DNA of 64,000 nucleotides from Corbicula japonica (Eukaryota > Mollusca > Bivalvia > Venerida > Cyrenidae), in the NCBI GenBank assembly GCA_038501625.1, contig JAZAYU010000005.1, positions 4,030,001 to 4,094,000 on the forward strand, in the 5' to 3' direction. Positions 12,201-55,375 of the stretch are shown piece by piece (position 1 is the first letter of the stretch; every line of letters starts with the position of its first letter). The notes under the pieces are model-generated. The model saw nothing but the letters and a program-made list of their open reading frames with translations. It had not been told where the DNA came from and did no database searches. The position numbers and the translations under genes are program-made.

Positions 12201-15200
12201 AATACAACACCCACTAATAACCAATCGAAATAATCTATTTGAATTTTCCGCTGCATAATAATAAAAATCCCACTAGATACCTCTCCACCCTGCTAGATGC
12301 CTCTCTGGTGTGAATAGCTACCAATCGAAATAGTTTACCAATATCAAAGACGTTTTTAATACTGGCGCGCATGCGCCAGTATTTTACTAACGATGCTGTG
12401 AACTCTGCGACGCGCAGTCCTGAACTTCGGGTGTATCATTGCGACCACGAGAGCGTATCAAGTAAGTGGTCACCGCGAGAGCAGGCCGAAATGTTCTGCA
12501 CAAGTGTGAAGCACAATGCAGCACACCATTCCACGAATTCTGAGCGATTGATAGTAAGTTTCCGTGTAATTTTGGAGCATCCATGCCAAAAATTCCATCG
12601 GACAATGTAGAGTGAAATCATGACCAGCTACGGCAGTGAACAAGCAACTGGATATGAATGAGTAGTTTAGTTACGCCTGAAAGATTTCGTAGTTGTGTGG
12701 CATAAAAAGTAGTGCATTTTAAGAAAATACAAATATTTCGAGAAGGAATGCGAACTTTGAAAGATAATTGTACAAATAAAAAAAAGAAAACAATTTAATG
12801 TTGTGATTCGCAAGGAAAGGATATTAAAAGAACGATTAAAAACAAATCAGTCACGTGACAAGCGGGAGATAGCGTGGGTTGCCATTTTGGTTAGGTTGGA
12901 GCAGTTGTGGATCGAGATTTTGCTCGGCTAACAAGGACCGGGCCGGGTCCCAGTGTTCTCCCCAGACAACCGTTAACAAGCTTTGATCTATTTCCAACAA
13001 GTGTTAAATTCGCCGACATCCGTTTATTCAAAATCGACATGTCATAATTTTCTGTTTCTTGCATTGTAAACACAGGTCGCTTTTCAATACACACCTCATT
13101 CAAGGTTAAGCAATGGGCGATTTGACCAATCACAATCGATTTCTTTACTATCAGCTGGATAACTCCGCCTCTCCACGTGGTGAATTCGCAAGTCTGTCGG
13201 TGTCGTTTGATCGTATTTTGGCTCTGTTGACTCTTGATATTCTCAATTAATAGCGGAACCCGGTGTGTTTAACATATTGTTCAATGATTTAAATGAGATG
13301 CGATCATGAGTAATTATTTGGTTATTCTTAGTTCTGTGATTAGAAGACAAACACTTCGAAAATTGTACTGTATACATGTATGAACATAATTGTGCGATAA
13401 TGGAATTGTTTTAAACAAATCTATTGGCAAGTTGCATTTAGAACTTAAATTTCAAAAGAAATACATTCTGTGGCATTTTACTGCGCTATCATCGTAACGA
13501 TCAGTTCATTTTCGTCGGACACATTTTCAAGTATGCATGCGCGAAAGAACGACGACTCGTCAATTCTATCTTATTTCAAGAGAAACCGGCCTTGTGAGGC
13601 TGATGCCAACTCCATCGGGCATTCTGAACTTCAAAATTCTAGAAATGAGATCGAGATCATTTCCGGATAGCCCTTCAAGAGCGACTCTTACGACGCCAAG
13701 TACCCCTTCACGTCGTGAAATTACTCCGACGCCGGACGCGGTACCCCAACATGCCGAGACACTGAATCAACGCCGGCTACCTCGAACAGCCAGTTCGATC
13801 CAGTCAGGTGTCGATCCTAAGTGGAAGAAAGTCTACTTCTGGTTGCAAGAAGTTGGCAATGTTTTTTATATATATTTACTTAGCCTTGTGACTTGCATTA
13901 AATAAATAAAATAACTCAATTTCATGCTACTATATATAACAAGAGGGCCATGATAGCCCTATATCGCTCACCTGAGTACAAAAGTACTCTCTGCTTGTGG
14001 TTTCAGACAAGAAGATTTTTAAAGTTTTGCCTATACAAGTCTTTGTAAAATGAAGTGACCCCTGGGGCGGGGCAAATTTTGACCCCAGGAAAATAATTTG
14101 AACAATCTTTGTAGAGTTCCAATAGAGGATGATAAATGCCAAATATCTAAGCTCTAGGCCTTGTGGTTTCAGACAAGAAGATTTTTAAAGTTTTTCCTAT
14201 ACAAGTCTATATAAAATGAAGTGACCCCTGGGGCGGGGCCAATTTTGACCCCAGGGAAATCATTTGAACAATCTTTGTAGAGTTCCACTAGAGAGTGCTA
14301 AATGCCAATAATCTAAGCTCTAGGCCTTGTGGTTTCAGACAAGAAGATTTTTAAAGTTTTTCCTATATAAGTCTATGTAAAATGAAGTGACCCCTGGGGT
14401 GGGGCTAATTTTGACCCCAGGGAAATAATTTGAACAATCTTTGTAGAGTTCCACTAGAGGATGCTAAATGCCAAATATCTAAGCCGTAGGCCTTGTGGTT
14501 TCAGACAAGAAGATTTTTAAAGTTTTTCCTATACAAGTCTTTATAAAATGAAGTGACCCCTGGGGTGGGGCCAATTTAGACCCCTGGGAAATAATTTGAA
14601 CAATCTTTGTAGAGTTCCACTAGAGGATGCTAAATGCCAAATATCTAAGCTCTAAGCCTTGTGGTTTCAGACAAGAAGATTTTTAAAGTTTTACCTATAT
14701 AAGTCTATGTAAAATGAAGTGACCCCTGGGGCGGGGCCAATTTTGACCCCAGGGAAATTATTTGAACAATCATTGTAGAGTTCCACTAGAGGGTGCTAAA
14801 TGCCAAATATCTAAACTCTAGGCCTTGTGGTTTCAGACAAGAAGATTTTTAAAGTTTTTCCTATACAAGTCTTTATAAAATGAAGTGACCCCTGGGGCGG
14901 GGCCAATTTTGACCCCAGGGAAATTATTTGAACAATCATTGTAGAGTTCCACTAAAGGGTGCTAAATGCCAAATATCTAAACTCTAGGCCTTGTGGTTTC
15001 AGACAAGAAGATTTTTAAAGTTTTTCCTATACAAGTCTTTATAAAATGAAGTGACCCCTGGGGCGGGGCAAATTTAGACCCCTGGGGAATAATTTGAACA
15101 ATCTTTGTAGAGTTCCACTAGAGAATGCTAAATGCCAAATATCTAAGCTCTAGGCCTTGTGGTTTCAGACAAGAAGATTTTTAAAGTTTTTCCTATATAA

Positions 15201-18200
15201 GTCTATGCAAAATGAAGTGACCCCTGGGGCGGGGCCAATTTTGACCCCAGGGAAATCATTTGAACAATCTTTGTAAGGTTCCACTAGAGGTTTCAAAATG
15301 CCAAATATCTAAGCTCTAGGCCTTGTGGTTTCAGACAAGAAGATTTTTAAAGTTTTTCCTATATAAGTCTATGCAAAATGAAGTGACCCCTGGGGCGGGG
15401 CCAATTTTGACCCCAGGGGAATAATTTGAACAATCTTTGTAGAGTTCCACTAGAGGATGCTAAATGCCAAATATCTAAGCTTTAGGCCTTGTGGTTTCAG
15501 ACAAGAAGATTTTTAAAGTTTTGCCTATATAAGTCTATGTAAAATGAAGTGACCCCTGGGGCGGGGCCAATTTTGACCCCAGGGAAATAATTTGAACAAA
15601 CTTTGTAGAGTTCCACTAGAGGATGCTAAATGCCAAATATCTAAGCTCTAGGTCTTGTGGTTTCAGACAAGAAGATTTTTAAAGTTTTTCCTATATAAGT
15701 CTATGTAAAATGAAGTGACCCCTGGGGCGGGGCCAATTTTGACCCCAGGGAAATAATTTGAACAAACTTTGTAGAGTTCCACTAGAGGATGCTAAATGCC
15801 AAATATCTAAGCTCTAGGTCTTGTGGTTTCAGACAAGAAGATTTTTAAAGTTTTTCCTTTCAGTTGCCATGGCAACCAGAGTTCTGCATGGAATTGATTT
15901 CTTTGAACAACTTTGGAAGAGCTTCATGCAAGGAACATCCGTGGCAAGTTTCGTCAAAATTGGCCAAGCCGTTTCAGAGAAGAAGTCGTTTGAAGAAAAA
16001 GTTGACGACGGACGGACGGACGGACGGACGACGGACGACGGACATCAGGCGATCACAAAAGCTCACCATGAGCACTTCGTGCTCAGGTGAGCTAAAAAGG
16101 GAAATATGCATATCAGGAATCGCCACACTCATAAAACACAGCCTCCCCTGCAGCAAAAAGAAGAGAGGAAAATAAATGATTTGTTTGTTGATTGTTTAAT
16201 AAAAAAGGGGAACCGTATGGGTTAGCGCCTTGGAACAGTCAGTAGCAAAATAATTTGCTACTAGGGGTTTAAACCAGGTTCTTGGGGTGCACTACATAAT
16301 TTATTATACCTGTTTGTGTTAACTGAATACCTATTATGATATTATTTTTATATATGTGAAGCTATCTATATGTTTACTGGTATCGTAAATTAATTTAATT
16401 TCAGATTGTGAGTGGGGTTTTTCCACTTTATCAAGAGTGAAGACTAAGCTTAGAAGCAGGCTTAACAATTCAACATTAAATTCATTGTTAATGATATCCA
16501 TGGAAGGTCCTGATGTACTGAAGTTTGATTATACAAATGTAATAAGGCAGTCAGCGCTTGGGCCCAAGAAGAAAAGAGGCTTCTGAAAGTTTAATCCTAA
16601 TTCTGTCAGTTGTAATGAAACACTGAGTTTGATATGTGTGAGATATCTTGGACAATGAAGGTGAAAAACTAACTATACAGAGTATATAGTTGGCATTGTA
16701 ACTTGATGAGATCAGATCAGTTTATGTTATTAAAACACATGTTGACATACTGTTTACACATTGTTTCACATTATTTATGTTTTTTAACTTTGTACCTTTC
16801 TTGGCTCTAAAGAGATAAAAAAAAACCATCTATGTACTATATACAGTTTTTGCAGTAAACTTTGGTACAAATATAAAATTGTATAAAATGATAGTTAAAA
16901 AATAAAGTTTCGCGAGCTTATATCCACGAAATATCCAGCGACAACCCTTCCAAAAATCCTGGGGAGACCATCAGTAAGTTAGCGAATATTTTTGTTAATG
17001 CATTGTTGCGATCGACGTAAAAATTAAGATTGTAACTGTTTCAGTCTCTTAAGGTACGTGAGCCTTGTGCATTTCATTGTTGACAATACTCAGTTGTGGC
17101 AGAGCCTGATCATCGTTATTCTAGCAAAATTTAACCACTAATCATACGCTTCTGCATCAAAAAGACCCCCGCCTAAGATTCAGGTGAAAAAAAGTGGAAA
17201 ACCTAATTTCCTTGCATCAGAATACAAGTACCTGCATCTATTGAAATCCCTGAATATACAGAATTATGTGCTAATGTTGATGATAGTAACTGTCACAAAG
17301 TTTAACGAAAAAATCACACATAGTTTCATATGTTTACAGTAATGATATCTGTGCAGGGCATGTTCGATTCAACCAGCGCGCCAGTATTTCAACGCTTTCA
17401 GCGCTTTGATTAACATTAACTCTACTGACAGAACTAACGCAAATAATGGTTCACTTGACAAATTGGAAGAATTTGTGAATACAAGAGTTCCAAATTTTAT
17501 TTACTTTACTATTCCTTTTATTAAAGAAAATGACGTTTTAAATTTTTTACGAAAACTAGACATAACAAAAGCAACTGGTCTAGATGGACTTAGTCCGAAA
17601 TTACTTAGATTATCTGCGAATGTTATAGCTACAAGTATTACCAAGCTAATTAATAACTGTATTATCAACAATACATTTCCTAACACCCTTAAACATGACA
17701 AAGTTTTTCCGAGGTTTAAAACCGGTGACAAATCCAATCCTACTAATTATAGACCAATATCGATACTTCCTGTAACATCAAAAATATTTGAACGACACAT
17801 AGTGAGACACCTTTTGTCTTTCCTTAATAAGTACAACTTAATTAACGAAGGACAATCGGGGTTTAGACACTTGCATTCATGTCAAACAGCCCTTGTTAAA
17901 ATAATTGGTAACTGGTTAGGAAATATGAATGCCGGTGAATTAACCGGGGCAATATTTTACGACCTCAGGAAAGCTTTTGATTTAGTTGATTTCCAGCTGC
18001 TTTTAAATAAACTTAAGATTTACAAATTCTCTGACAATGCGGTCGACTTTTTCAACTCTTACCTGACCGGACGTGTTCAGAGCGTTGTAATTAGTAATAG
18101 GGTATCAGAGCCGCGGCCTGTTACGATGGGAGTCCTACAGGGCTCTGTGTTAGGACCTGTATTATTCCTTATGTTTATCAATGATCTACCCTTATATATC

Positions 18201-21200
18201 AACAATTGTTCGACCGATCTCTTTGCGGATGACACGACTGTACATACGCATGACAAAAATGTAGATGTTATTAAGCAAAAATTGCAATCAGCAAACGATA
18301 AAGTATTAAACTGGTGTGTAAATAATGACATGCTCCTTAATGCAGAAAAATCATCAATAATGTTAATCGGTACACGTAACAGACTTGCACAGGTCTCAAA
18401 TATTAACCTATATATTGATAATACATCTGTTACAAATGTTACCCAACAAAGGTTACTGGGGGTAACTATTGATAATAAACTGACTTGGAACTTACAAGTT
18501 CATCATATGGTTACTCAGATTTCCCGTAAACTTACTCTCATGCAGTTATTATCTTCATATGTCTCTCAAGATTGTTTGATAAAGTATTACAATGCGTATA
18601 TAATTCCCTTATTTGATTATGGTTGTTTGGTTTGGGGCGGAACAATCTCATCCAATATTTTTCAACTCGAAAAACTACAAAAACGAGCAGCGCGAATTAT
18701 TCTTAAAACAGGGCTGACTACGCCTTCATCTATCATGTTTAAACATTTAAGCTGGCTGCCTGTCCGATGTCGTATCAAATACCATATTCTTTTACTAACC
18801 TACAAAGCATTACATATAAACATGGCACCAGTGTATATAACTTCGATGTTTAAAGAACTAACATATAGCAATGAAAGGCAATTAAGATCTATTTCAAATC
18901 TATTAGTTCCAAAATTTAACACTCTATTATACAGTAAATCATTTTCAGTTGTTGGTCCAAATTTATGGAACTCTCTTCCTTTGAGCGTAAAGTCATGCAA
19001 AACAGTTAAATTATTTAAAAAACATGTTAAAAAATTCTTATTTGATAATATGTAATGCATTGTCAATACAATTACAGTGTAATTATGTGTAAATGTTTAA
19101 GATGTTTGGGTAATGAATCTTTTGTTATAATTGCTATTGTTACAATTTTTCATTTAAATATGTCTGTTTCCAGCATTTTCATATTGTTCTTGAAATTTTA
19201 TTGGAAATTTTTTTCTTTCTTTCAATTATATTTTGAGAATGTATGAATGTATATATGAATATAAATTTGTAATAATTTGTACATGTTTTTAAGAGGACCA
19301 TATGTAAGAATGGCCATGCCAAATATGTTATCCTCTAAAAATAAAGAATTTATTATTATTATTATTATTTATTTATTTCATTTTCCCTCTGCATAATAAT
19401 ACGAGTATTATTTACAACATTGACATTACTAGGTCAAAAGTGAGCTTAGACAGCTAACGCCGAATAAAATGTGAAATGTTATTTTGCCAAAAACGTTTCT
19501 ATCCGTAGAATAACTGTTTCTTTAGATAAAAATTAGCACGTTCTTACTGGCCTGAATCGTCCTTGATTTTTTTTGGCGTTCACCTTTTCGGCGTGTAAGC
19601 GTGGTGCTGCGCTTTTTGGATAGGAGACCGCCATATTGCAGGCTCAGCACCTCCGACTTTGGATCTCTTTGCGGGTTCTCCTATACCGACACCCGCCGAA
19701 TCGGTCGTAATGCTAACCCTTAAACCCTGAGCGCCAAGGAGGGAAGCCATTACTACCATTTTTAAAGTCTTTGGTATGACCCGGCAGGGGATCGAACCCA
19801 CGACCTCCCAGTCTGGAAGCGGACGCTCTACCTACTGAGCTAATCGGGCTGGTAATTGTCCTTGATCATTGAGAGACCTTCAAGTATTGACTAAAACTCA
19901 AATGATTATTATATATGAATGAGCTCAAGTGTTAGATTTTATTACATTTTGAAATTTTATTACAAAACAGGTTGAAATGTATCAACCACTTTTGTAATAA
20001 CGAGAATTGTAATAAAAGTAAAACTATTTTTTTTGCCAAAAAGTTTCTGTCCGTAGACGGTAGAATAACTGTTTTTAGACAGAAATTAGCACATCCTTAT
20101 TGACCTGAATTGTCCTTGATTATTTAGAGACCTTCAAGTATTAATTAAAACTCTAAAAAGATCTATATATGAATGAACTTAAGTGTTAGATTTATTACAT
20201 TTTGAAATTTTATTACAAAACGGGTTGAAAGTATTAACCACGTTTGTAACCACGAGAATTGTAATAAAATGTGAAACTTAGTTATTTTTGCCAAAAATGA
20301 TTCTATTCATGGAATAACTGTTTTCTGAATAGAAATTAGCACGTGCTTATTGACATGAATTGCCATTGATCAGTTTGAGACTGTCAAGTCTTGATTAAAA
20401 CTCAACTTATATATGAATGAACTTAAGTGTTAGATTTTATAACATTTTGACATTTTATTACAATTCTCGTTATTACAAAAGTGGTTGATACCTTACAACC
20501 CGTTTTGTAATAAAAACGAGAATTGTTATAATTATTACAATTTTCGTTTATATTACAAAACAGGTTGTGACAGAGGTCACTGTGACCTTGACATCTGACG
20601 TAATCACCCAGAAGATAATAGGTGTCATAAACACAGTCATGACGACCAGCATTCTTATCGAATAATAAGGAACATACGTGTAATCGCTGTCTAGTTATTG
20701 GTCACACAAGTTTTTTGTGATAGTCTCAGTGACCTTAAACTTTATGAAGCTGACCTCAAAATCAAAATGGGCAGACAAACCATCCTACAAGATCTGAGAA
20801 ATATTGATTAAATAGTTGTTTAGCTACTAATGAGACAAGGTTTTAGTTAAAAGTCTCTGTAACCAGTGGCCACACTGACCTTAACATGAAAAGGGCCAAA
20901 TAGTATGTAGTTATTCAGGGCTTTTTCAGGGGTTTGGGGAAATATGCCCCTGTCCAAATTGGGATTTTTTACGCAGTATACACTGTTTTTTACACCGGTT
21001 CATTCATTTTTTAGATTGTAGACGAAAGGTATTTCTGTTGAAATGGAGTTTTTCTTGAAATTGGGGAATATATTTCTTGAAATTGGGAAAACTGATCCCT
21101 ATCTTGCATTGGGAATATGGATTACAGGGCTCTCATTAAACTTGCAAATAAGGGAGAAGTTTTGTCATAATTTTACTGAATTGTGGAGACGTTTGCAGTT

Positions 21201-24379: not shown

Positions 24380-25083
24380 CCATGTTATGTTCTTGATTTC
24401 TGATGTGTGTAACCACGTTTACTGATAGTTACGCTATGTCCCATGGCAGGAACACAAATTTTTGTTACGATGTTTACTAATAGTTACGCTATGTCCTAGG
24501 AACACACATTTTTGTAACCATGTTTACTTATAGTTACGCTATGTCCCAGGAACACAAATGTTTGCTACCATGTTCACTGATAGTGACGCTATGTCCCAGG
24601 AACAATATTTTTTGTTACCATGATTACTGATAGTTACGCTATGTCTCAGGAGAACACTTTTTTGTGACCATGTTTACTGATATTTACGCTATGTCTCAGG
24701 AGAACACTTTTTGTGACCATGTTTACTGATTGTTACGCTATGTCTCAGGAACAAACATTTTTGTTTCCATGTTTACTGATAGTAACGCTTTGACACAGAA
24801 CATGAAATTTTGTTACCATGTTTACTTATAGTTACGCTATGTCCCATGAACACACATTTTTGTAACCATGTTTACTGAAAGTGACGCTATGTCCCAGGAA
24901 CAAACATTTTTATTACCATGTTTACTGATAGTTACGCTATGTCCCAGGAACAAACATTTTTGTTACCATGTTTACTGAAAGTGACGCTATGTCCCAGGAA
25001 CACACATTTTTGTTACCATGTTTACTGATAGTTACGCAATGTCCCAGGAACAAAAATGTTTGCTACCATGTTCACTGATAGTT
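24380..25083. repeat. Minisatellite array, left half (~49-50-bp unit)
   Basis: About 14 imperfect units of gttacgctatgtcccaggaa + cacacatttttgttaccatg + tttactgata. The array stops abruptly at AGTT (25080-25083), where the transposon begins. Confidence 0.9.
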
Positions 25084-25111
25084 GACTCATTCTCAGATAA
25101 TATTGACAATT
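25084..25111. repeat. Left terminal inverted repeat of the transposon
   Basis: 28 bp, starts GACTCATTCTCAG, perfect inverse of 33470-33497. A further CATGT is shared just inside, after a one-base offset. Confidence 0.95.
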
Positions 25112-25633
25112 GCATGTTAGAAAAGTTGAAATTTCAACTTTATCATACATAGTTTTTGCATTTGTCTCAGTGCTAAGGTGTGTCTATTAAGTGTGTTTCC
25201 AAAAGGGATAAAGTATAGTAAAACAGAAAAGTATTTTTTTCTAGGTTAGACATTGCCAATATATGGGTTTATTTTGGATCATGTTAATATTCCACACCTT
25301 AACTTTAAACTATTACAGCATAGTGTGTAAGGGTTTTGGAATCAAATAAATTTTTTAATATGTTATTGACAGTGATATAGATATGGAATTAATGCATTTG
25401 AAATATATTGTAATAAATTGTTATTAAGAAATATCAAAACAAAAATTTATTCCATTTCATAAAATGATATATTTCAGAATTAATATATCAAACGTTTAAC
25501 ATCACTGAAAATATAAACATTTAAATTGACAAATTGTACCATTTTCAGTTTCCAGGATGTAAATGGAAATAATAATAATCAGCAAATTATAAACCGCTGC
25601 CTTGATCATCTTGCAAATTTTCAATAAATTATT

Positions 25634-25667
25634 GTCCCGTAAATGATTAGAGAATGTCCCGTAGATC
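25634..25667. promoter_or_regulatory. Subterminal motif pair, left (possible transposase-binding sites)
   Basis: GTCCCGTAAATGA (25634) and GTCCCGTAGATCA (25656), 22 bp apart. An inverted pair with the same order is at 32381-32416, and single copies at 32907 and 33096. Confidence 0.5.
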
Positions 25668-25854
25668 AGACTATTGTTTAGAGTACATAAATATTAACCA
25701 AATGGTATGTTTAACGATGTTATGCCATAATCATTAAAGCAAATCAACATGTAATTTATAATCAAGCATACTGTGTGTGATTTCTTCATAGAGTGAAGTT
25801 TACTAGATTCTGTTTCTTCTCAGTGCCAACTTTAACACTGTCACCTTTACCTGG

Positions 25855-26170
25855 CAAAACAAGAGTTGTCACCTCTCTTTAGAATGTTCTGTACATCTTT
25901 CCTCTGTTGTGCTTTGAATTTCTGAGCTCGGTTCTTCACTAAATTACCCATTATCACTTTTCATCTTTCTAAGAATGTCATCTTTTGCATGATCTTATTC
26001 TGTATTTCTTCATAACTTTGCCACTTAATTCCATTTTGTATGTCAATCTTTTGTATTGGCGTTTGGCATATTGTATTCCAGATCTCTGTATTAACACACT
26101 CGGCTAACAACAGCTTCTTCCTGATATCTGGGAAGTCTTTGGGATCTAACCCAAAGGTCTTCAAAAACAC
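25855..26170 (-). pseudogene. Minus-strand coding remnant in the transposon, left
   Basis: After an acceptor (caaaacag) the minus strand reads VFLKTFGLDPKDFPDIRKKL through MQKMTFLER, then an in-frame TGA (25961-25963), then continues in the same frame as KVIMGNLVKNRAQKFKAQQR to a TAA near 25855. Composition is clearly coding-like (basic, helical). I do not recognise the family. A second transposon-encoded protein is a reasonable guess; the stop marks it as decayed or as two separate pieces. Confidence 0.5.
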
Positions 26171-26241
26171 CTGTTTTGCTCTTTGGAGTAAGATTATTCT
26201 TTTAAGCGTTCAATGCGCTTATGTGCAGTTTTCATTATTTG

Positions 26242-26275
26242 TGACGTCGGCTGCGAAAACCAGGCCAATTGCGCA
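26242..26275. repeat. Internal inverted repeat, left copy
   Basis: TGTGACGTCGGCTGCGAAAA + CCAGGCCAATTGCG; its inverse at 31753-31786 differs at about five positions. The pair brackets the plus-strand gene. Confidence 0.7.
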
Positions 26276-26775
26276 AATGACGTTATGCGAGAAAACGCGC
26301 TTTTTCGTCGTACGACGTGAAAATTAAAATTCAATTAAGAGCTGTCGTCTTTTGCGTGACAAATCGTGATATAATAAATATTTTTTCAACCAAAAACTGG
26401 CTGATTTTCGGTAAATGATACATTTTGCAAGGGAAACAACTCGAATTAATTCAATGCTTGTCAAAGTATGAATTATCTTCACGATGTTTTGACTGTAGGT
26501 GTCGCACTGAAACAGCGTGACCTAGAAATTTCGACAGCGCACTTGTTCTGACAAATATTTCGATTTCTCGACGGTGTATCATTCACGGACAGTGAAACTG
26601 GATTTTATGGATTAATTAACATCTCTACCAGGTAATAATAATTTATTGGAAAGATGACAAGCTTTGGTATCAATTTTTTACCCCTAATATTTTGAGATAG
26701 CAACCCGGAAGTAGACATTGCATAGCTACCGTTTGTTTACGGATACTATGGCGGAAAATTATCACAAATTCAAAA

Positions 26776-29700
26776 ATGTCTCAGTGTAGTCAAGCCAGTA
26801 CCGTTATTTATGAAAACAGTCAAGATCCTGAATTTATCCAAGAACTCATTTCTGTTGACAGACTTTATTTTCAAGAACTTGGTCAAAATAACGAAACGTC
26901 CACAACAAATTCCCCTGTTTTTAATCTGACAGCATTAAACGAGTCTGATTCTGATCAAGAAGAAACTGTTGACAATGATGAATCTGATGATGATGATGAT
27001 TTTTTAGATGATTTAAACATCCCTGTCACTGTTGTTACAGAACCCACAGATTATGATAAACAGTATAGAGACAGTGTTGAAACATTTATAAACAAAACCT
27101 GTGGTTGTACAAAATTGTATGGGAAACCTTGCAGCACTGTCATAAACAATGATGATCTTGTCAGTTTGCATGAATTTTGTTCATCCTTAGAAAGAGAAGA
27201 GCTTGACCTTGTTATACAGTCAGCTCTTTTTACCCATAGGCATAATGGTCCTAAAACAAGTAGTGTGTCAAGACATCAGCAAAGGGATAGACAAAGGCCA
27301 AGTCAGAAATTTTTTATCAAAGGTGTTGAAGTGTGTCGGCAGGTGTTTTGTTTTGCATACTGTGTTGGCCGTGAAAAACTTATGAAAATTGGCCAGTTTC
27401 TTGATGAAAATGGATTGAATCCAAGAGTACATGGTAACAAAAATAAACTGCCACACAATGCCTTGCAGTTTAATGACAGAGAACAGATTAAACAGTTTTT
27501 GTTGCGATATGCAAAGGAAAACGCAATGCCTTTGCCAGGACGCCTGCCTAATCACAGGCAGAGTAAAGTCTTGCTCCTTCCATCCGACAAAAGACAGGCA
27601 GATGTACATGAGGCATATTTGCATGTTGCAAGTGAATTAGGTTTAAGGAAAGTGAGTCTCACCACCTTTGTCAGGACATGGCATGATCTATGCCCACAAA
27701 TTGTTCTTTGCAAACCGTCCACTGATTTGTGTCATAAATGTCAGACATTTAACAATAGGCTATCAAATAGTGGCAATCTACCAGAACAACAGAAATCTGA
27801 GATTCTGGAAAATTTTACCAGTCACATAAAGCAGGCCCAGTTGCAAAGAGAAGAATATAAAATCCAATGTGAAAACTCAAAGATGCTTTGCAGTTCTAAC
27901 AATTTTTTGGAAGGTTTGAATCAAATATTGCTAAATATTAAACTGATAACTGTTACACTGTCAGAGATTCATTTTGTTTAATTTTTAGTAATTAAAATTA
28001 TTATATTAGTTCAGTCCAGTTTCCATTGTATTCTTGAGAATATTTCTATTGAACTGGTTACTTATTGTGTGAACAATGTACTGTTAACCACTACAATTTA
28101 ATTGACCAAGATTTGTTATAATTGGGCTTATTAATAACTTGTTCTTTATATTATCATGTAGTTCATTATATTTTTATGTAGATTAAATAATTTATAAAAT
28201 AATGTGTATCTCACAGGATGCATACATGTATTTCAGGTGCTGAGCCATGTTCATTAACAGATACCACCATCCATTACAGCTGGGACTTTGCTCAACAGGT
28301 TTTCATTCCTCACCATAGTCAGCAGGTATGTTATGGCCATTTGTTAGTGTTTTAAAATCTTTTTTAAACATATTAATAGCCAACATGCTTATAAGGTTTT
28401 GAAATACACAAGCTTAAGTATAAGGCAAAATTTGTTCATTCAGGCAGAACTTGTGACTACTGGAATTGATTTTTAATTAAAATATCTATGAAAAAAGCAT
28501 GAAAAGGATGTTATGAAATGTGTATTCTTGTGATTTTGTGTAAATATTAAAATATGGAGAAAGAAATGAATAAAATAAGACAAAGAATTAATGTTGAGTA
28601 TATGAGGGCATTCTATTAATCTATTTATCACATGTATACAACAGGATATTTTGTAACTATATAACAAAACTAATTCACAGACAATGAAAAGTGATATTAT
28701 TTTTCAGGTTGGACCAATCTTCTTTAAAACTCCCAGAAAATGTGAAGTGTTTGGTGTTTGTTGTGAAGGAACTGGTAAGATTTCTTATAATTCTTGTCAT
28801 TGTACAAAATAAGTCAAGTGGATTTTATATGTTTATGATTTGGGATTGGTATGTCCTTGCACATGGAGATTATGTACATCTGTGAACTCAATTATATATA
28901 AATTGCTGTTAAATGATTTGATCAGAACTTTATTCTGTATAGTTGTTTCATTTTAGATAAGAGATGTAATATCTTTATTTTAAGGAGAGAAATTAACACA
29001 AACAATATCACATTTTCAGAGAAGCAGGTGTTTTTCCTGTGTGATGAAGGATTAGCCCCAGGAAAAGGTGCCAACACTGTTATTAGCTATGTACACCACT
29101 ATCTTGCCACCTATGGACTTGGTGAAACCACAGCCCAGTTTCACTTTGACAACTGCTGTGCACAGAACAAAAACAATGCAGTGCTGTGGTATGCCATGTG
29201 GAGAGTTATGACAGGTAAGTTTGAACTTTTGTATAATTGGAATGATAAATAAACTTGTAAAACATAAAATAAGAACAAATTAACATCTGACATGGTCACT
29301 ACTTACATGTAAACAGTAATCAGGAGTTCGAAAGACAAATAATAAAAAAAATTAAAAAGTGATAGAATGATTTTGTTTAAAAGCAAATTTTTACATAACA
29401 CTATCATGATTAAATTGTTTTGCATCACATATTTGTTCCTCTGTTGAAAAAGATTTTCAATATACTAGTCTACAGTACAAAATGTTTTACATTAAATAAA
29501 ATGTAATACAGTGACAACACAATAATAATTTTATTACCAATATTATCATAAAAATATAAAATGATTGGTCTGTTGACTAGTACAATTGTTATGTTTAGGG
29601 TTGCATGTTAACATCCAGTATAACCTGATGGTAGCTGGACATACTAAATTCTCCCCAGACTGGCACTTTGGGCTCTGGAAATCCCGATGGAGGCGCATTG

Positions 29701-30537
29701 ATGCTGAGACTGTTGAGGTGAGATTTTTAGATTTCTATGCTATTTTGTCAACTTTATCATACTTTTATTTGGAAAACACAATTTTCTGTGGAAGACATTA
29801 TAAGTCTGTCTGTCAATGCAAAGTTTAATAAACAAAACGAATATGAATGATGTCACATAATTTATGACAAATAAACTTTATATGGGCTCACTTATTTGAC
29901 AGGTCTGCTCTATAATTTGATGAACATTGATATAAAAAAACACAGTTTTAAAAATGCATTGCACTAAAAGATAAAACCAACTTTCAAATAAATTTATTTG
30001 GTCTGTATGATTAACTTTATGCTGTGGTTAATACAAACAATGATATTTGCAATTGGTAATAATTTTAAAATGATTAAAATGTATAAATGATATCTTCTTT
30101 ATATTCTTGTTTAGGATGTTGCTACTAGTGTAGACCAGTCATCAAAAAATGGACACAATGTCTCTCACTTAGTGGATGACCACACCAGCCCAGTGACCTT
30201 TTACAACTGGAAGAAGTTCTTGGCAAGTTTGTTCAGACCACTGAAAAACATTACCATGTACCATAGCTTCCATGTGTCATCATGTGAACCTGGTGTGGTA
30301 GTCTGTAAGGAGTTCTCAGACAGCCAGGAAGTAAGAGTGTCACTTATACGTAAAGGTGCATCAGTAACACCAGGAATGCTACCAGATGTTCTCTATGGCC
30401 CGGGCCTTGACGCTGAGAGGCAGTGGTATCTGTTTGACCAAATCAGACCATTCTTTAAATCAGACAGTTCCAAAAATCTTACATGTCCATTGCCTAAACT
30501 TTCCAAACCCCAGTGTTGTAAAAAGATGAAAATCTGA
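26776..30537 (+). CDS. Transposase-like RNase-H-fold protein, six exons
   Basis: Exons 26776-27913, 28237-28325, 28708-28774, 29020-29214, 29599-29717 and 30115-30537; all introns GT-AG and all phases agree, giving 676 residues without a stop. N-terminal ~80 residues are acidic (DNDESDDDDDFLDD). A Cys/His region follows (TCGCTKLYGKPC, LCHKCQ), suggesting zinc binding. The second half has FHFDNCCAQNKNNAVLWYAMWRV and LMVAGHTKFSPDWHFGLWKSRW, in which D, N and the later acidic/His residues look like an RNase-H-like DDE active site. From memory it resembles the DNC-GQNKNN / GHTKFSPD family (DUF7869-like) seen in cnidarian, mollusc and fish genomes. Being the only intact gene between the 28-bp TIRs, it is the likely transposase; a domesticated cellular gene is less likely. 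Confidence 0.82.
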
Positions 30538-30539
30538 CC

Positions 30540-31750
30540 TGTGAATGCATTAAGTGTAGAGATAGTATGTCAGCTCAGACTACTATTTATGAGTTAATAA
30601 TACAATGTTTACATAGTTTATTGTCAATTTACCAGGTATAAATGTATGTAGATTTTACTTTGAATACTAGGCATTATTCAAGTGTGAACTAGTATATTCA
30701 CTATGTACATGTAATACTTTATCCTTATAAAGTTGTTCATGTAATTGCATATTATTTGGATACAAAGTTATTTTCAAAAAGAAAATGTACATGTTTTGTA
30801 TTCCATATTCCATGTTCTATGTTCATATATATTTAGAGCTGTGTTTCTGTGTTTGCTTAGGCGATGCACTGTAAACAGAAAAGGAATGCTAAACCACTTA
30901 TTTTAGATTATATCTAACTGAAATGTCTGAAGTAAGCCAACAAACATGACTTAGCTGTTATATTATTATAAACATGAGATAAAATCATAAAAAAGAAAAC
31001 TATTGAGGTTTAATACTATTTTCAATTGCATTTTTGTTGTTTTTTTATATTTTAGGCATACATGTTAGTTACAGGTTTTGGTTGCCATGGTAACCAAATT
31101 GATGTTTTACAATTAACAAAAATCAGCTACAAACTAAAATACATTTAATACTTCTACATATTAGCTTTTGTATTATGTATAAGAAACAGGATTTTTAACT
31201 CCAATATTCTGTCTGATAAATTGTAATAAAAAGAATGTTGGTGTGGTGTGTTATTAGAATGTCACTTTTTCAGGTTATTTCATGTACTTTTAATTTTTTT
31301 CTATTATTAGTCCCTCAAAACAGTAGATTTACTTAAACTTTTTTTACTAACTGGTTAAAATCAAGAATTGAACAACATTTTTTATTCAGTAACAGTTGTT
31401 TTTGTATGTTAAATGGGGAATCATATGTATTCCTGGTTGCCATGGTAACCATGTTTGGCATTTCCATGAAAAAGACGGCTGTAAGTAAAAAACAATTTAA
31501 TTTTTATTTATCTGTGTAAAGCAACTAAGATGATACTTGCAACAGTGAATAAAAGATGAACATATGTATGTCTTGTTTAACTTTTTAAAGATTTCAAAAA
31601 CACTCGATTTTTGTTTGAAATGACAAAAACACCTAGTTTGTTCAATCCGCTATGGGCGCATCAATATTGATCGAACCGCTGTGAAATTTTCAGGAGTTAT
31701 CTAATACATGTTGTAGATTTAGAAAATGCAATAAACTGAAAATGTGATTT
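30540..31750. other. 3' flank of the transposase-like gene, no gene
   Basis: AT-rich. Two copies of ggttgccatggtaacca (31079 and 31435) stand out: each is a near-palindrome around ccatgg (GGTTACCATGG-like, RFX X-box style). No coding signal. Confidence 0.45.
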
Positions 31751-31752
31751 TT

Positions 31753-31786
31753 TCGCCATTGGCCTGGTTTTTGCAGCCATTGTCAC
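31753..31786. repeat. Internal inverted repeat, right copy
   Basis: CGCCATTGGCCTGGTTTTTG + CAGCCATTGTCACA, inverse of 26242-26275. Confidence 0.7.
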
Positions 31787-31849
31787 ATTTTTCTTAACAT
31801 ATCATTCTAGTCTTCAAGTGTCTTAATGCATTTGTTAAATCTTTTTAAA

Positions 31850-32235
31850 TTAATGCTTTTTCTTCGGTTCCTTTCTTGTTCTTGAACTAGCAATTTGTGA
31901 GTGAAATGGCATCTTTGCAGTAAGCAATTCTTCGCCTTGTGTTGAACTGCTTACAACATCAGTGGCACTATCATCATAGGTTTCTGAAGTTTTTGGTTTG
32001 TTTTCTTCTTCTTCGTGTTGTGACGCTGATCTCCTTTTCTTACTATAGTTTACGATTAAGTTCTTTCTGTTTTGCTCTCCTTGCTCTCCTTGCATCTCAT
32101 TATCATCTTCTGTAAGCTGTATAATAGGTACATAATATGCCTTAAATTGCCCTCAATTTCCATCCACTGCTCTCTGAAATTCTCTTTCTTACGCTTTCGA
32201 AATTATTTCATCCATTGAGTCTTTGACATGGCCAT
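31850..32235 (-). pseudogene. Minus-strand coding remnant in the transposon, right
   Basis: The minus strand after acceptor tttgttgcag reads MAMSKTQWMK, a stop, then FRKRKKENFREQWMEIE in the same frame. A one-base shift near 32150 opens GQFKAYYVPIIQLTEDDNEM through SKKRRSASQHEEEENKPKT to KEPKKKH and TAA at 31850. The charged, low-complexity tail looks like a nuclear protein C-terminus. One stop plus one shift mark it as decayed. Function unknown. Confidence 0.45.
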
Positions 32236-32380
32236 TCTGCAACAAAAAATAAATGCATGTATTGAATATATACTTTAAGGATTTTCTCAACTCTTTCCGG
32301 GTACAATTTGTGTGTTATAATTTTGTGCACATTAATATTTATTCAACAAAAATATTTTCATAAGTACCCATGTTCTTTTT

Positions 32381-32416
32381 TTTGACCTACGGGACTTTTT
32401 CTCTCTTTTATGGGAC
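32381..32416. promoter_or_regulatory. Subterminal motif pair, right (inverted)
   Basis: The minus strand reads GTCCCATAAAAGA and, 21 bp on, GTCCCGTAGGTCA, mirroring 25634-25667 in order and near-identical spacing. Additional direct copies: GTCCCGTAGATTA (32907) and GTCCTGTAAATTT (33096). Confidence 0.5.
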
Positions 32417-33469
32417 AAGTTGTTTTTTCAGTGTGTGTCTGTTCTATTACACAAAAAACATATTAATATAATTACTTTTGACAAAATAAATTGAAATATA
32501 CATGCAATCATCAAGTGATTTTACTGTTAGTATCAATTTTCAAAAGATTAAAAACTCACCTTAAGCTTTGGAATAATGCTGACTGCACCTTTCGACAATA
32601 TGGACATCTACGCGAAATGACAACATCTGGGGATGTTCTATAGCCAAAGGAACAAAAAATACTCAAAAAGGAGCAATGAAACCCCAAAAATATCAGTATC
32701 TTTGAGAATTATGACTCGTAAATTAATGTCACGTAAATGAGAAAATCTAATTGAAACAAGATTTTGATACAAATTCCTGTATAGAAATTCACTGCTTTTT
32801 GCATATCTTGATTTTGTCACAATTCTACTATATCGTGTTCGTTTGAAACCGGTTTAAGTTTAGACACAGAACATGAATAGAAAGATGCATCACCAATAAT
32901 ATATTTGTCCCGTAGATTATAACACTATTTTTCCGTGAAGAAAAAATAAGTTCAGCATCCTCTCATAACATCTTATTGGTAAAACCGAATATGTATTCAA
33001 GTTTTTTTATAAACTTGACTTATAGAGACAGCAACGAAGGTAAAGATCTAGCTATTTCATACATTTCAATGTTGTTAGGGCTACAATAAAATTTTGTCCT
33101 GTAAATTTATTGAATTTGGCGACATCCCTTAATCCAAATATATTTACTGAAAACAATGAGTTCTTGTAAATTATAACTTTCTCAGTGAATCATGTCACTA
33201 ACAACGAGGAAATAATATGTCATTTTATTTACAAATCGCTGTTTTGTTGTACTTCTTTTTTCTTCAAAAGAAAGAAAAATTCGCTGGCGACACAGGGATT
33301 TCTGGACTTTGTTAATGTTTATGGCATTATGAATTTTTTACGAATCAAGCTTTTCGTTAGGAATTTGTTTAAAAAAAATGTTTAATGTGTATACTTCAAA
33401 TCTCAATTGCTTTTCTCTACTGTCTGCCTCCCTTTTTTCAGTTATTTTGCCAGAAAGGATGGCGACATG

Positions 33470-33497
33470 AATTGTCAATATTATCTGAGAATGAGTC
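33470..33497. repeat. Right terminal inverted repeat of the transposon
   Basis: Exact inverse of 25084-25111, ending ...CTGAGAATGAGTC, followed by the AGTT duplication at 33498-33501. Confidence 0.95.
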
Positions 33498-34460
33498 AGT
33501 TACGCTATGTCCCAGGAACACACATTTTAGTTACCATGATTACTGATAGTGACGCTATGTCCCAGGAACACATATTTTCGATACCATGTTAACTGATAGT
33601 TACGCTATGTCCCAGGAACATTTTGTTACCATGTTTACTGATAGTGACGCTATGTCCCAGGGACAAACGTTTTTGTTACCATGTTTACTGATAGTTACGC
33701 TATGTCCCAGAAACAAACATGTTTGTTTCCATGTTAACTAATAGTTACGCTATGTCCCAGGAACACACATTTTTGTTACCATGTTTACTGAAATTGACGC
33801 TATGTCCCAGGAACAAACATTTTGTTACCATGTTTACTGTAGTGACGCTATGTCCCAGGGACAAACGTTTTTGTTACCATGTTTACTGATAGTTACGCTA
33901 TGTCCCAGAAACAAACATTTTTGTTTCCATGTTTACTAATAGTTACGCTATGTCCCAGGAACACACATTTCGTTACCATGTTTACTGATAGTGACGCAGT
34001 GTCCCAGGGACAAACGTTTTTTGTTACCGTGTTAACTGATAGTAACGCTATGTCCCAGGAACAAACATTTTGTTACCATGTTTACTGATAGTGACGCTAT
34101 GTCCCAGGGACAAACGTTTTTGTTACCATGTAAACTGATAGTTACGCTATGTCCCAGGAACAAACATTTTGTTACCATGTTTACTGATAGTGACGCTATG
34201 TCCCAGGGACAAACGTTTTTGTTACCATGTTAACTGATAGTTACGCTTTCTCAGGAACAAACATTTTTGTTACCATGTTTACTAATTTTTATTCGTACGC
34301 TTTGTCTTGGAACATAATTTTTTACCATGTTTACTGATACTTAAGTATATGCTATGTCCCCGGAACACAGATGTAACCATGTTTACTAATAGTTACGCTA
34401 TGTCTCAGGAACACAAAATTGTGTTACCATGTTTACTCTAATGACGTTATGTCTCAGGAC
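33498..34460. repeat. Minisatellite array, right half (~49-50-bp unit)
   Basis: About 20 units of the same gttacgctatgtcccaggaa family as 24380-25083 and in the same direction, degenerating after 34250. Here several units form a higher-order pair (gatagtgacgctatgtcccagggacaaacg alternating with gatagttacgc...). Confidence 0.9.
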
Positions 34461-34786
34461 TTCGTTCTTAATAATAAGATGTTCTTGAAATACAGTCCAC
34501 ATTCGTTGTGTCGAAGTCGGCGGGACCGTACATTTTAATTCGAGATATCCGAAGTTCGACACATCCGAATTGGCGCCAATGCACGAATATCACACCAGTA
34601 TGTTTCTTATGCTGACATAATTGTGAGTGCTAGTACTCGTATATGAACATTTCAATGGATCTATTACTTAATCAAAACAGAACAGAAAAAATATATTAAC
34701 TGGATTATATACACACCATACATGTTTGGATTTAAAAAAATACTAATACAGTGCACATATATAGTTCAGTGCATATATATAGATCA

Positions 34787-35005
34787 AATGATAGTGCCTC
34801 TAGCTGGTAGCAAACCCGCACCGTCACGGCGACAGAGCCTAGCCCTGCAATTCCTGCGACGCAACCGATTGAGCTAACCGGGACAACCCCAAAAAAGGTT
34901 GATCGGATAGCCCTGATATACGTAACAATCACTGCATGACATCGGTAACGGGTTATTTTACTGATAACAGTACTGACTATATGTACGGGGAGACAGGGTG
35001 ATTCT
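34787..35005 (-). mobile_element. tRNA-derived SINE, family S1, long copy
   Basis: The minus strand carries the head (GTCAGTACTGTTATCAGTAA), then GTTAGCTCAATCGGTTGCG (A-box) and GTGCGGGTTTGCTACC (altered B-box). Confidence 0.75.
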
Positions 35006-47649: not shown

Positions 47650-49587
47650 ATATATATATCTTTATTGAACAAAAAACAAATGCCTGTGATTACATAATAA
47701 TATACATATTTACAATACCAAAAATTCACACATGAAATGATCAGTGGTCAGTGGCGGTCATGTTAATATATAGAAATCGACATAAACAAATCTGAAAATT
47801 ATAGCAATAATAGATAATAGAAACAAATCAAGTATATCGTTTTCAATCTTATGACTAAAATGTAAAATACTTTTATCCTTGGAGAAAAGTGACTGTTGTT
47901 TAATATAAAAATTCATTACGGCGTTCCATAGCTTTAAACGTGTAAATTGCCAGATTCAAATTAATTGTTTGGTCCTCGCAAGAAAAAAGTTCAATAAATT
48001 TTGGAATGTTTGGTCTTTTGCGGAAATATGGTTTTATATATCTTATTCTTAGATCTTTATAAAGTTCACATTCGAGTAAGAAATGAAATTCGTCTTCTAA
48101 ACTGTTACATAAAATGCATTTGCGTTCATTTCGAGGTATTGCTTGCGGTTTATGCCACCGTCCTGTTTCTATCGCTAGTCTGTGTGAAGATAATCTTAAT
48201 CTTGTCAACGCTGATCTATATTTTTGAATTTTAACTTGTACTAAATATTTTGAAAAATTAAAGTTTGCAAAAAGTCTAAATGTTGAGGCTCTAAGTCGAT
48301 GTATTCAATTCTGCCATCCAGTTTTGAGTAAAAATATCTTTCAGTCTTTGCTTAACTGATGATATAAAAATATTTTCGTTTCCGACTTCTTGAAACAACC
48401 ATGCGTAATTCAAACCTAAATTATAAAGAATAGATCTAACTGTTTTTGCCCAATTTGAAATATCATCATTTCTTTCGATATCACTTAACATCATGTTGTA
48501 TGTTTGCTTAGTAAGTTTAACACTATCACATTTAATAATTTTAAGCCAATATTTTATTATTTGAGTAGTTCTTTGATATTTTAAAGGCATTCTTCCTAAT
48601 TCACCGTAAATGAAATTATTCTGTGTTTGTGTTTTAACCCCTAAAATATTTTTACAAAAATTGGTATGAATATTTTCTAGTTTCGTTGCGTCATTTATTC
48701 CCCAAACTTCACATCCATAATTTAAAATAGGTTTTATGAGTTTATCGAATAAATCAAGTCTGTGCTTAACTTCCAGGTTTGTAATTTTTTGAAGGTACAG
48801 TTTCATTTTGAATATGCTTTTTAATGCTTGACCAGATAACGCTTCGAATGTTTGTTCAAAAGATCCCCCACTTGTGAATACAATTCCAAGATACGTGAAT
48901 TTGTTAACAATTTCGATTTCTAAACCATTGTAAAATAATCTTGTATTTCGCGCAATTCTCCCCCCTTTTCTGAAAAACATAACTTTGGTTTTATTAACGT
49001 TCACTGTAAGTTTCCATCTTTCACAATAATCTTTAAGAATATTCAGGCCTTTTTGTAAATCATCTAAGCTATCTGATATAATAACAATATCATCCGCATA
49101 TAAAAGTAAGAAAAGTTTCAGCATGTCCGTACTTATACCTTTAAAGCCTTTACGACATAGTGTTTCTTCAAGGTCATTCAGATATATAGAAAAAAGGAAA
49201 GGGGATAAACAATCACCCTGACGGACCCCTAATGAGCATAAGAAGCTATCACTTAATAAATTGTTTGTTTTAACTCTAAACTTAACATTTTGGTACATTG
49301 ATCTTAGGACATTTAGAATTTTTCCCCTGACCTCAAATTGAATTAATTTCTGCCAAATATTTTCGCGTACTAGTAAATCAAAAGCTTTTGTAAAATCTAC
49401 AAAAAAAGCGTATATCTTCATGTTTTCATTTAAAACATGATTTATTAATCCATGTAATACGAATACATTGTCAATTGTTCCCATGTGTGACCGAAATCCC
49501 GCTTGAGATTCTATGTAGACTTGATAATATTCAGCCCAACTATTTAACCTATTATTTAGAATTCTGGTGAAAAGTTTACCCATGGTA
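47650..49587 (-). mobile_element. 5'-truncated LINE inserted into the RT element
   Basis: The host frame is cut after ...LLDNIYV (49588) and resumes at YVRFGTSIYKQ (47645). The LINE 3' end has aataaagatatatatatat, and the target text tttatgt/atatgt is repeated at both ends. The 5' end starts within the RT (VMGKLFTRIL). Confidence 0.8.
47900..49583 (-). pseudogene. LINE reverse transcriptase with C-terminal zinc knuckle, one frameshift
   Basis: The 430-residue part (49583-48291) carries SQAGFRSHMGTIDNV, motif A FVDFTKAFDLL, GVRQGDCLSPFLFSIYLNDL, the catalytic YADDIVII box, a KTKVMFFRKGG segment, KFTYLGIVFTSGG and LIKPILNYGCEVWG. A one-base shift near 48290 separates it from ASTFRLFANFNFSKYLVQVK, TRLRLSSHRLAIETGR and CILCNSLEDEFHFLLEC, the CCHC-like knuckle. 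Endonuclease and N-terminus are missing. Clade (RTE-, I- or CR1-like) not resolved. Confidence 0.85.
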
Positions 49588-50689
49588 CATAAATATTATC
49601 CAGTAAGAAAGTTAGCGACTCTATTAGAGCGTGACAGGTCCATAAGGTATAATTATCATAAGAACCATCTGTAAAAATGCCCTATGTTCATTACAAGCGA
49701 TGAAGGTTTTATTTTCTCTAGCAAACTTTTTTTCAATGAGACTAGTTAGTTTGTCTCTTATTAAATTATGAGGGAGCGAAGTGTATAATGTTGAGAAATC
49801 ATAAGTAGACAAACAGAACGCCCGAAAATTATTTGATTTAAGCTTTTTCAAAACGTCATTTGAATTTTTAATCGACCAAAATAAATTTTTGCCAGAAGTT
49901 TCAAAAACCTTATCACAATACCTAATTACATGTTCTTTTATAGCTGTAAGACAAGATGTTAAGAGCACGGATAATTTAGTAGTAATGCAAGAACTAGAGT
50001 TAGCAATAAATCTTGCTTTGTACGGTGTTTTATGCATTTAGGCAACCCATTCATAGTAGGTACTTTGTCTTGTTTCGGCTCAATACTGATTCTAAATTTT
50101 GTAATTTGTAGAGTGTGTGCAGTAACAATATCACTCTCAGATGAAGAAGTCAGTATAAAAGCATTAGTGCTGTTCAGTTCTTCAGTTTGAATATTAATAT
50201 AGTGTATTCGTCACACTATAATTACATTATTAGAAGCCTTATCAGCAGGTGTTAAAACAAATCTGTTACGAAAGTCTTGAATTCCTTTTTTCAAATGACG
50301 AAAGTTAAAACGAGGTCGAGGTGGTAATAAAGCAATGTTTCTTTCATAAAATGAGTCAATTATTTTGAATATGTGTTTTTTTCCAGTTAGAAAGTGCATT
50401 AATCTCGGCATGTTCTCTTTTGCACCATTTATTGCAAAATAAGTTTAAAGACTCAGCAATTTCTGCACGGCATGCATTAAAATCAATTTTGGATGATATT
50501 CTATATTTGGGACCTTTAGAAATTAAATTACGAATTCTAGAGTCTTTGATTAAATTAAGATCACCGATAACAATATGACCGGCAGGCTTATAGCAATATT
50601 TAAAAGTTAAACACTCTCAAGATTTGGTGTATTTTCAATGATCTGTAAATCCGAGGTAATCAGAGAAGTACTAGTACTGGTACTAGTTA

Positions 50690-54055: not shown

Positions 54056-54686
54056 GGAACGAAACTAGCATACATTGTAAACATATACAATTGATGACCA
54101 ATTAGAACTTTGGTTGAGTGTTAAGTGTAACGTTCCCAATACATGTCCGATTAGCGGAGTGGTCTGACGCACAAAAAAAATTGAAACTCCAACTACATAT
54201 CACAAGAGAGAATTCGATGGTACTAAAAGATGCAAAATAATTAAAGGTAACTTAGGGAGATCCGGAAAATCGTAGCTTATGTCTAAGTAAAGTCTAATTT
54301 TCCAAGTTAATTCTCGATTGCACTGATTTATCAATATCATGGGCCATTTTCGCATGTCGCTTGTTATGTTGTTCATTGTAAAGATTTAATCAATCACACG
54401 CATCGTACTAAAAATACAACGATAACCAGATAACCAAATCAGAGACTAATGAACCTCCAGAAGGGTCCAACACCATTTATGACAATACCGGAAGTTTCCG
54501 ATTTCACGTATTGTAAACTTAACAAGAGCACCGTTGGCATCGTTACGTCCGTTTTGTGGCTGTTTAGTATCAAAGTTTAAATTGCGTAATCTACTGGCAA
54601 GCCAGAGACTTTCTTTCTTTTTTTATGCCCCCGCCATGAAATGGCGACGGTCAATATGAGTTGATTGTCCGTCCGTCCGATATTCT

Positions 54687-55375
54687 CGTGAACGCAACTC
54701 CTCCTACACTACTGGTGGGAATTTAATGAAACTTGACCACAATGCTTGGCCTGATATGTTGTTGTGCATAAAGGTGGGGTTTCGCTCTTACATGTTCCGT
54801 TCAGAAGTTATGGCCCTTTGATACTTCCATTTACATTAGTTTTAATAGGAGTATATCTCGTGAACGCAACTCCTCCTACACTACTGGTGGGAATTTAATG
54901 AAACTTGACCACAATGCTTGGCCTGATATGTTGTTGTGCATGAAGGTGGGGTTTCGCTCTTACATGTTCCGTTCAGAAGTTATGGCCCTTTGATACTTCC
55001 ATTTACATTAGTTTTAATAGGAGTATATCGCGTGAACGCAACTCCTCCTACACTACTAGTGGGAATTTAATGAAACTTTACCACAATGCTTGGTCTGATA
55101 TGTTGTTGTGCATAAAGGTGGGGTTTCGCTCTTACATGTTCCGTTCAGAAGTTATGGCCCTTTGATACTTCCATTTACATTAGTTTTAATAGGAGTATAT
55201 CTCGTGAACGCAACTCCTACTACACCTCTCCTGGGAATTTGATGAAACTTTACCACAATGCTTGGCCTGATATGTTGTTGTGCATAAAGGTGGGGTTTTG
55301 CTCTTACATGATCCGTTCAGAAGATATGGCCCTTTGATACTTCCATTTACATTAGTTTTAATAGGAATATATCTT
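54687..55375 (+). repeat. Tandem array, 172-bp unit, 4 copies
   Basis: The anchor cgtgaacgcaactcct recurs at 54687, 54859, 55031 and 55203, exactly 172 bp apart. Confidence 0.92.

Follow-up and report, generated by a model that had tools for sequence, protein, structure and literature searches.

We analysed a 64,000-nucleotide stretch of the genome of the bivalve Corbicula japonica (contig JAZAYU010000005.1, positions 4,030,001 to 4,094,000 of the forward strand; hereafter the window), in which a segment that carries inverted ends and an AGTT duplication interrupts a minisatellite at 25083/33498. A preliminary description of this locus, made from the letters alone, had taken the segment for a complete 8.4-kb DNA transposon with an intron-bearing gene and a second gene on the minus strand, a combination that it could not assign to a superfamily with certainty. 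Comparison with other copies in the genome revealed that the segment is not one element, as the stretch 26241-31786 is an independent insertion that has ends and a duplication of its own. The best explanation of the locus is that two cut-and-paste DNA transposons, one nested in the other, lie inside the minisatellite, a joint reading of structure and mechanism to which we assign a probability of about 0.93. The parts of the locus are the following, in window coordinates:

24408..25083, no strand: minisatellite, left part, period 50 (Tandem Repeats Finder, TRF)
25080..25083, no strand: outer target-site duplication AGTT, left (sequence comparison)
25084..25111, plus strand: outer terminal inverted repeat, left, 28/28 identical to the right end, 45 genome matches
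25084..26240, no strand: outer non-autonomous element, left arm, which adjoins the right arm with a 4-bp overlap in 15/19 other pairs
26237..26240, no strand: inner target-site duplication ATTT, left (single ATTT in insert-free siblings)
26241..31786, plus strand: inner autonomous-type transposon, 5546 bp, without match in the fetched outer copies, with copies L049-L052 elsewhere
26241..26269, plus strand: inner terminal inverted repeat, left (GTGACGTCGGCTGC...; sequence comparison)
31758..31786, minus strand: inner terminal inverted repeat, right (GTGACAATGGCTGC...), 25/29 bases as left
31787..31790, no strand: inner target-site duplication ATTT, right (single ATTT in insert-free siblings)
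31791..33497, no strand: outer element, right arm (arm adjacency and identity to siblings)
33470..33497, minus strand: outer terminal inverted repeat, right, 28/28 identical to the left end, 45 genome matches
33498..33501, no strand: outer target-site duplication AGTT, right (sequence comparison)
33498..34459, no strand: minisatellite, right part, period 50, with the unit and direction of the left part (TRF)

As first proposed, the two arrays are one array that has been split: TRF returned the same 50-bp unit on both sides, the coordinates were right to the base, and both the 28-bp inverted ends and the AGTT copies that border them proved exact. Joining the flanks restored a normal unit, as had also been claimed, which agrees with the consensus of the array in 48 of 50 positions and carries a single additional base at its end; ten units of the left array, namely those excisable by an exact CCATGTT, matched the consensus at 42-48 positions. 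The genome searched, here and below, was the 1.07-Gb assembly of 1630 contigs from which the window was taken. No allelic empty site was found in this assembly, where the right flank matches over its full length only the window itself, and all 27 genome matches of the minisatellite unit lay on the window's contig. A second, paralogous locus of the 50-bp minisatellite (L105, G000:C5:4138500-4143700) lies approximately 75 kb past the right array and is without the outer insertion. The L105 array is also split, by approximately 3.5 kb (L105 ~797-4340) that has no match in 25084-33497; the sole window match of this stretch (139 bp, 71%) is to 17853-17989, inside a reverse-transcriptase open reading frame (ORF).

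The preliminary description had suggested looking for further copies with the same ends and 4-bp flanks, and this search identified 19 other pairs. The outer 28-bp end had at least 45 matches in the genome (≤3 mismatches) versus none for the reversed control; 40 of the 45 formed 20 facing pairs, the window included, and five were single. Copies ending elsewhere, which had been named as evidence against the preliminary reading, were not seen among the 20 pairs, all of which end at the same bases. Each pair is flanked by an exact 4-bp duplication and none by a 5-bp one, whereas 4-bp agreement in a control of mispaired flanks was 6/380. Because the end matches were absent from the reversed control and the duplications were nearly so from the mispaired one, the pairing of the outer ends is not due to chance. 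The duplications are AT-rich but loose, with 17 kinds in the 20 pairs.

In length, 11 of the 20 pairs fall between 2844 and 2870 bp; the rest measure 2549-5147 bp, apart from the window pair, which is the longest at 8414 bp. We aligned every one of the other 19 pairs, as well as one of the five unpaired ends, with the window (E 1e-10). The sibling alignments covered approximately 1-1157 and 6704-8414 of the window's 8414 bp, without match between, and the two arms met in an exact 4-bp overlap (ATTT) in 15 of the 19 pairs. Because the siblings are without 26241-31786, because this stretch has its own ends and because ATTT is doubled around it and occurs once in the siblings, we conclude that it is an insertion in the window copy only. 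The window's outer element minus the insert measures 2864 bp and agrees with the 2864-bp sibling L018 in 2859 of 2865 alignment columns (99.8%). Identity to the window's outer element is 99.02-99.79% in ten of the 19 pairs, 91.70-95.96% in seven, 89.25% in L017 and 81.01% in L013. The outer element is a member of a recently amplified non-autonomous family. The recent activity that the preliminary description had proposed thus stands for the outer element on account of these ten siblings (99.0-99.8% identical); the open gene, one of the arguments of that description, lends no support, because this gene belongs to the inner element and says nothing on the outer one. Further inserts are present in the outer copies L011, L021, L022 and L024.

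The outer family and the L013 transposase

One outer pair, L013, is 5147 bp long, is flanked by a TCTT duplication and encodes an intronless open transposase-type ORF of 841 codons; its two ends differ from the outer 28-bp end by 0 and 1 mismatch. The sibling examined for its coding content, L018, is without a long ORF, and its minus strand keeps two pieces, of 100 and 82 amino acids (aa), which are the same in the window and resemble the L013 ORF:

31850..32152, minus strand: outer transposase gene remnant, 5′ piece, 100-aa ORF as in L018
25961..26209, minus strand: outer transposase gene remnant, 3′ piece, 82-aa ORF as in L018

The window copy is connected to the L013 gene through its near-identity to L018. 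What had been described as a second gene on the minus strand is, accordingly, what remains, in decayed form, of the transposase gene of the outer family, and the inner insertion has split it. Comparison with L013 revealed that the window's outer family lacks approximately 1.85 kb, from codon ~301 onwards. A genome search with the L013 protein, which scored the best candidates only, matched 16 of the 18 remaining non-window outer pairs, and only within the first ~330 codons; these matches carry 4-13 stops (8 or 9 in 11/16). The outer family is an internal-deletion derivative of an approximately 5.1-kb L013-type element, having the same ends and a partly deleted gene. Internal-deletion derivatives of DNA transposons are familiar from Ds-type relations, and the 2.86-kb outer family resembles them in sharing the ends of L013 without the C-terminal part of its gene; it differs in detail only, in that one copy carries a nested transposon.

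The L013 protein reached the cut-off of no Pfam family and matched no solved structure in the PDB, and 177 relatives were found at E < 0.001. Among the best 120 of the 177, the names, where given, are mostly those of bivalves and other marine invertebrates, the named sources among the matches listed being bivalves, abalone, lancelets, a brachiopod and a sea cucumber. Three relatives (P0177, P0194 and P0239) are labelled as Sedimenticola metagenome-assembled genomes, perhaps because DNA of the host animal entered the assembly of a symbiont. In an alignment with 52 of the 120 listed relatives, D552 and E584 were invariant and D468 nearly so, and we read D468/D552/E584 as a putative DD(D/E) triad.

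The inner element and its DUF7869 gene

The intron-bearing gene, which had been attributed to the 8.4-kb segment as a whole, is part of the second transposon at 26241-31786. It consists of six exons with GT-AG borders, which when joined give 676 codons and whose splice signals are kept in the copies L049-L052:

26776..27913, plus strand: DUF7869 transposase-type gene, exon 1
28237..28325, plus strand: exon 2
28708..28774, plus strand: exon 3
29020..29214, plus strand: exon 4 (DNCCAQNKNN motif with D475)
29599..29717, plus strand: exon 5 (GHTKFSPD motif with D517)
30115..30537, plus strand: exon 6, TGA stop

The inner family has four further near-full copies (L049-L052), whose identity across the aligned part is 95.1-99.5% and in one of which (L052) the left end is replaced by other sequence. 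Of the five whole-gene copies, four (window, L049, L050 and L051) have an open frame and one, L052, a broken frame. The protein matches PF25273/DUF7869 with 53.9 bits (E 2.3e-14), exceeding the Pfam gathering cut-off of 26; Pfam lists this domain without a function, and a literature search for the name DUF7869 alone found nothing. No solved structure was matched, and a scan of viral contigs for DUF7869 elements gave five pattern matches and no relatives. At E < 0.001 the inner protein has 498 relatives; among the best 120 of these, the closest is a partial metagenome protein (86% identical) and the best named ones come from scallop, oyster, soft-shell clam and mussel (47-48% identical). The relatives of both transposases agree with the bivalve origin of the window. 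Across 21 sequences, the inner protein and 20 of the 120 listed relatives, D475 and D517 were invariant and D396 nearly so, suggesting that D396/D475/D517 may form the catalytic triad. Counts of synonymous/replacement codon changes relative to the window copy were 7/3 in L049, 1/6 in L050 and 7/6 in L051, and purifying selection on the gene is suggested in two of the three copy comparisons only. The inner element looks self-sufficient.

A genome search with the inner ends returned 44 matches for the left end and 55 for the right, the latter including three left ends that had already been counted. All 26 pairs within 20 kb were examined, 22 of them as 45-base ends, the other four being the window, L049, L050 and L051. 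Exact duplications of 4 bp flank 20 of the 26 pairs and duplications of 3 or 5 bp none; the kinds are ATAT (13), AAAT (4), ATTT (2) and AATT (1), so that all 20 read AWWT. Ends were placed by eye in four more distant DUF7869 elements (L053, L054, L058 and L059, leaving out L055-L057 and L060), and the duplications were ATAT in L053 and ATTT in L054 (ends GTGAC) and ATAT in L058 and L059 (ends GAGCC). At two inner copies, G000:C70:3252742 and G000:C80:2471724 (L075/L076 and L081/L082), the lengths differ and the flanks are nearly alike (CTCCAAATAT/CTCCATATAT, ATATATGCAT), which may reflect duplication of a locus or a repeated target.

Proposed history and its alternatives

We propose that a 2.86-kb non-autonomous element entered one minisatellite unit, duplicating AGTT, with an L013-type transposase presumably acting on it in trans. 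Later, or in the donor copy before its move, the 5.5-kb DUF7869 transposon would have hit an ATTT site in the outer element, cutting the decayed transposase-gene remnant in two; one genome cannot tell the order of the inner insertion and the outer element's entry into the minisatellite. Each transposase, a putative RNase-H-like DD(D/E) enzyme, would bind its own inverted ends and join them to cuts staggered by four bases, a cut-and-paste mechanism to which the duplications and the protein family point. The outer element would then rely on a transposase supplied by L013 or another relative.

Several observations weigh against two nested transposons with this history. The arm junction is less exact in 4 of the 19 other outer pairs, all more diverged copies (L012, L013, L017 and L026), and L011, L019 and the window copy are absent among the best-candidate matches to the L013 protein. 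Six of the 26 inner pairs are without a matching duplication: one whose ends lie 19.6 kb apart, probably two elements, four others, and the full-size L051. The mispaired control of the inner family is high (201/650), its sites being very uniform, and AT repeats make the inner pairs agree also at 2 bp (15/26), 6 bp (3/26) and 8 bp (1/26). The inner 4-bp duplication is supported, less cleanly than that of the outer family, because uniform AWWT sites raise the mispaired control. Finally, the L050 comparison, with seven coding differences, shows no purifying selection.

The alternatives fare considerably worse. The two elements might form a working composite, in which the inner transposase also moves the outer element; both leave 4-bp AT-rich duplications and the outer element is without an intact gene of its own, but we consider this highly improbable, given that their ends differ (GACTCATTCTC versus GTGACGTCGGC), that outer sites are not restricted to AWWT (AGTT, TGTC and TGGT, for example) and that L013, with the same outer ends, encodes a different transposase. 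We give very little credence to an outer family that is not derived from L013 and captured a piece of its gene by chance: although L013 is only ~81% identical to the window arms, the similarity spans both arms in the same order to the very ends, and the 28-bp terminal repeats and the duplication length are common to both. A single complete 8.4-kb transposon of an unusual superfamily, whose transposase gene has introns and whose second gene lies on the minus strand, is refuted by the sibling copies without insert and keeps almost no probability, for although perfect outer ends and a duplication enclose the whole segment, its 5.5-kb part is found in 0/19 other outer pairs, is bounded by separate ends and a separate duplication and is also present on its own at other loci, and the ORFs on the minus strand are what is left of an L013-type transposase gene. 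The superfamily puzzle of the preliminary description disappears because the features that caused it belonged to two nested elements.

Superfamily placement, significance and other repeats

Published accounts describe Sola elements as having a DDD transposase, 4-bp duplications, lengths of mostly 2-9 kb and inverted ends of 11-1124 bp (PMC10741241), give Sola2 duplications as AWWT (PMC3627910) and report Sola1, Sola2 and Sola3 from bivalves, bivalve-curated Sola1 averaging 5445 bp (PMC10294476). The preliminary description had mentioned Sola as a guess, and a good one: judged by duplication and anatomy, the inner element is probably Sola2-type and the outer one Sola-like. The inner element shares with Sola2, as described there, the AWWT 4-bp duplication, short inverted ends, one large transposase-type gene and a length within 2-9 kb, a likeness by description; the domain of its protein is listed in Pfam as DUF7869. 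L013 resembles Sola1 and Sola3 in its 5.1 kb, 4-bp duplication and one large DD(D/E)-like protein, a likeness by description, whereas the outer family departs from them in its loose AT-rich duplications and an L013 protein below every Pfam cut-off. What speaks against the Sola label is that duplication type, size and architecture carry it, Sola having been compared by description only.

The L013-type and DUF7869 transposases align at one motif (D...QYRNK...GHGKxxCD versus D...QNKN...GHTKFxPD); against a relationship, their profile comparison was not significant (probability 1.1%, E 0.047). That the L013 transposase could represent an undescribed superfamily with 4-bp duplications or a deep Sola branch, the DUF7869 and L013 proteins being perhaps distant sisters that share a D...Q(N/Y)(K/R)N...GH(T/G)K...D motif, strikes us as unlikely, if conceivable.

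KolobokP, in the published account, carries a homing endonuclease and is flanked by long direct repeats at its termini, Kolobok duplications being TTAA (PMC9587614); with the window elements it shares, on that account, richness in bivalves and a 4-bp duplication, and it differs from them in that the duplications here are AGTT and various others and that no long direct terminal repeats were found here. The TTAA rule excludes Kolobok and piggyBac, as TTAA accounts for 2/20 outer duplications among 17 kinds and inner duplications are AWWT. Chapaev (EnSpm/CACTA) elements have a terminal CAC and a related transposase; the ends here, GACTCA and GTGACG, are not CAC, a comparison of ends and not of proteins.

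Both elements look recent and of known general kinds, and an apparent new type of transposon gives way to two ordinary ones. DUF7869, a function-less Pfam domain, is now linked to a transposon whose ends are defined and whose 4-bp duplications read AWWT, and many genes for 'uncharacterized proteins' with DUF7869 in marine animals are therefore probably transposases. Ends, duplications and an open gene are now also given for an L013-type transposase family that is missing from the Pfam copy searched.

The window contains other repeats. Just past the right array lie dispersed repeats of ~223 and 211 bp (34488-34710 and 34784-34994), which are represented elsewhere by numerous copies of 91-100% identity; those of the second are often arranged in tandem. 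Three ORFs with a PF00078 reverse-transcriptase domain, at 7254-8765 (minus strand), 17346-19052 (plus strand) and 48294-49595 (minus strand), are probably retrotransposon remains. A tandem array at 13994-15858 comprises 11.2 copies of a 166-bp unit (94% matches), and two neighbouring arrays, at 54684-55374 and 55583-56806, have 172-bp and 145-bp units.

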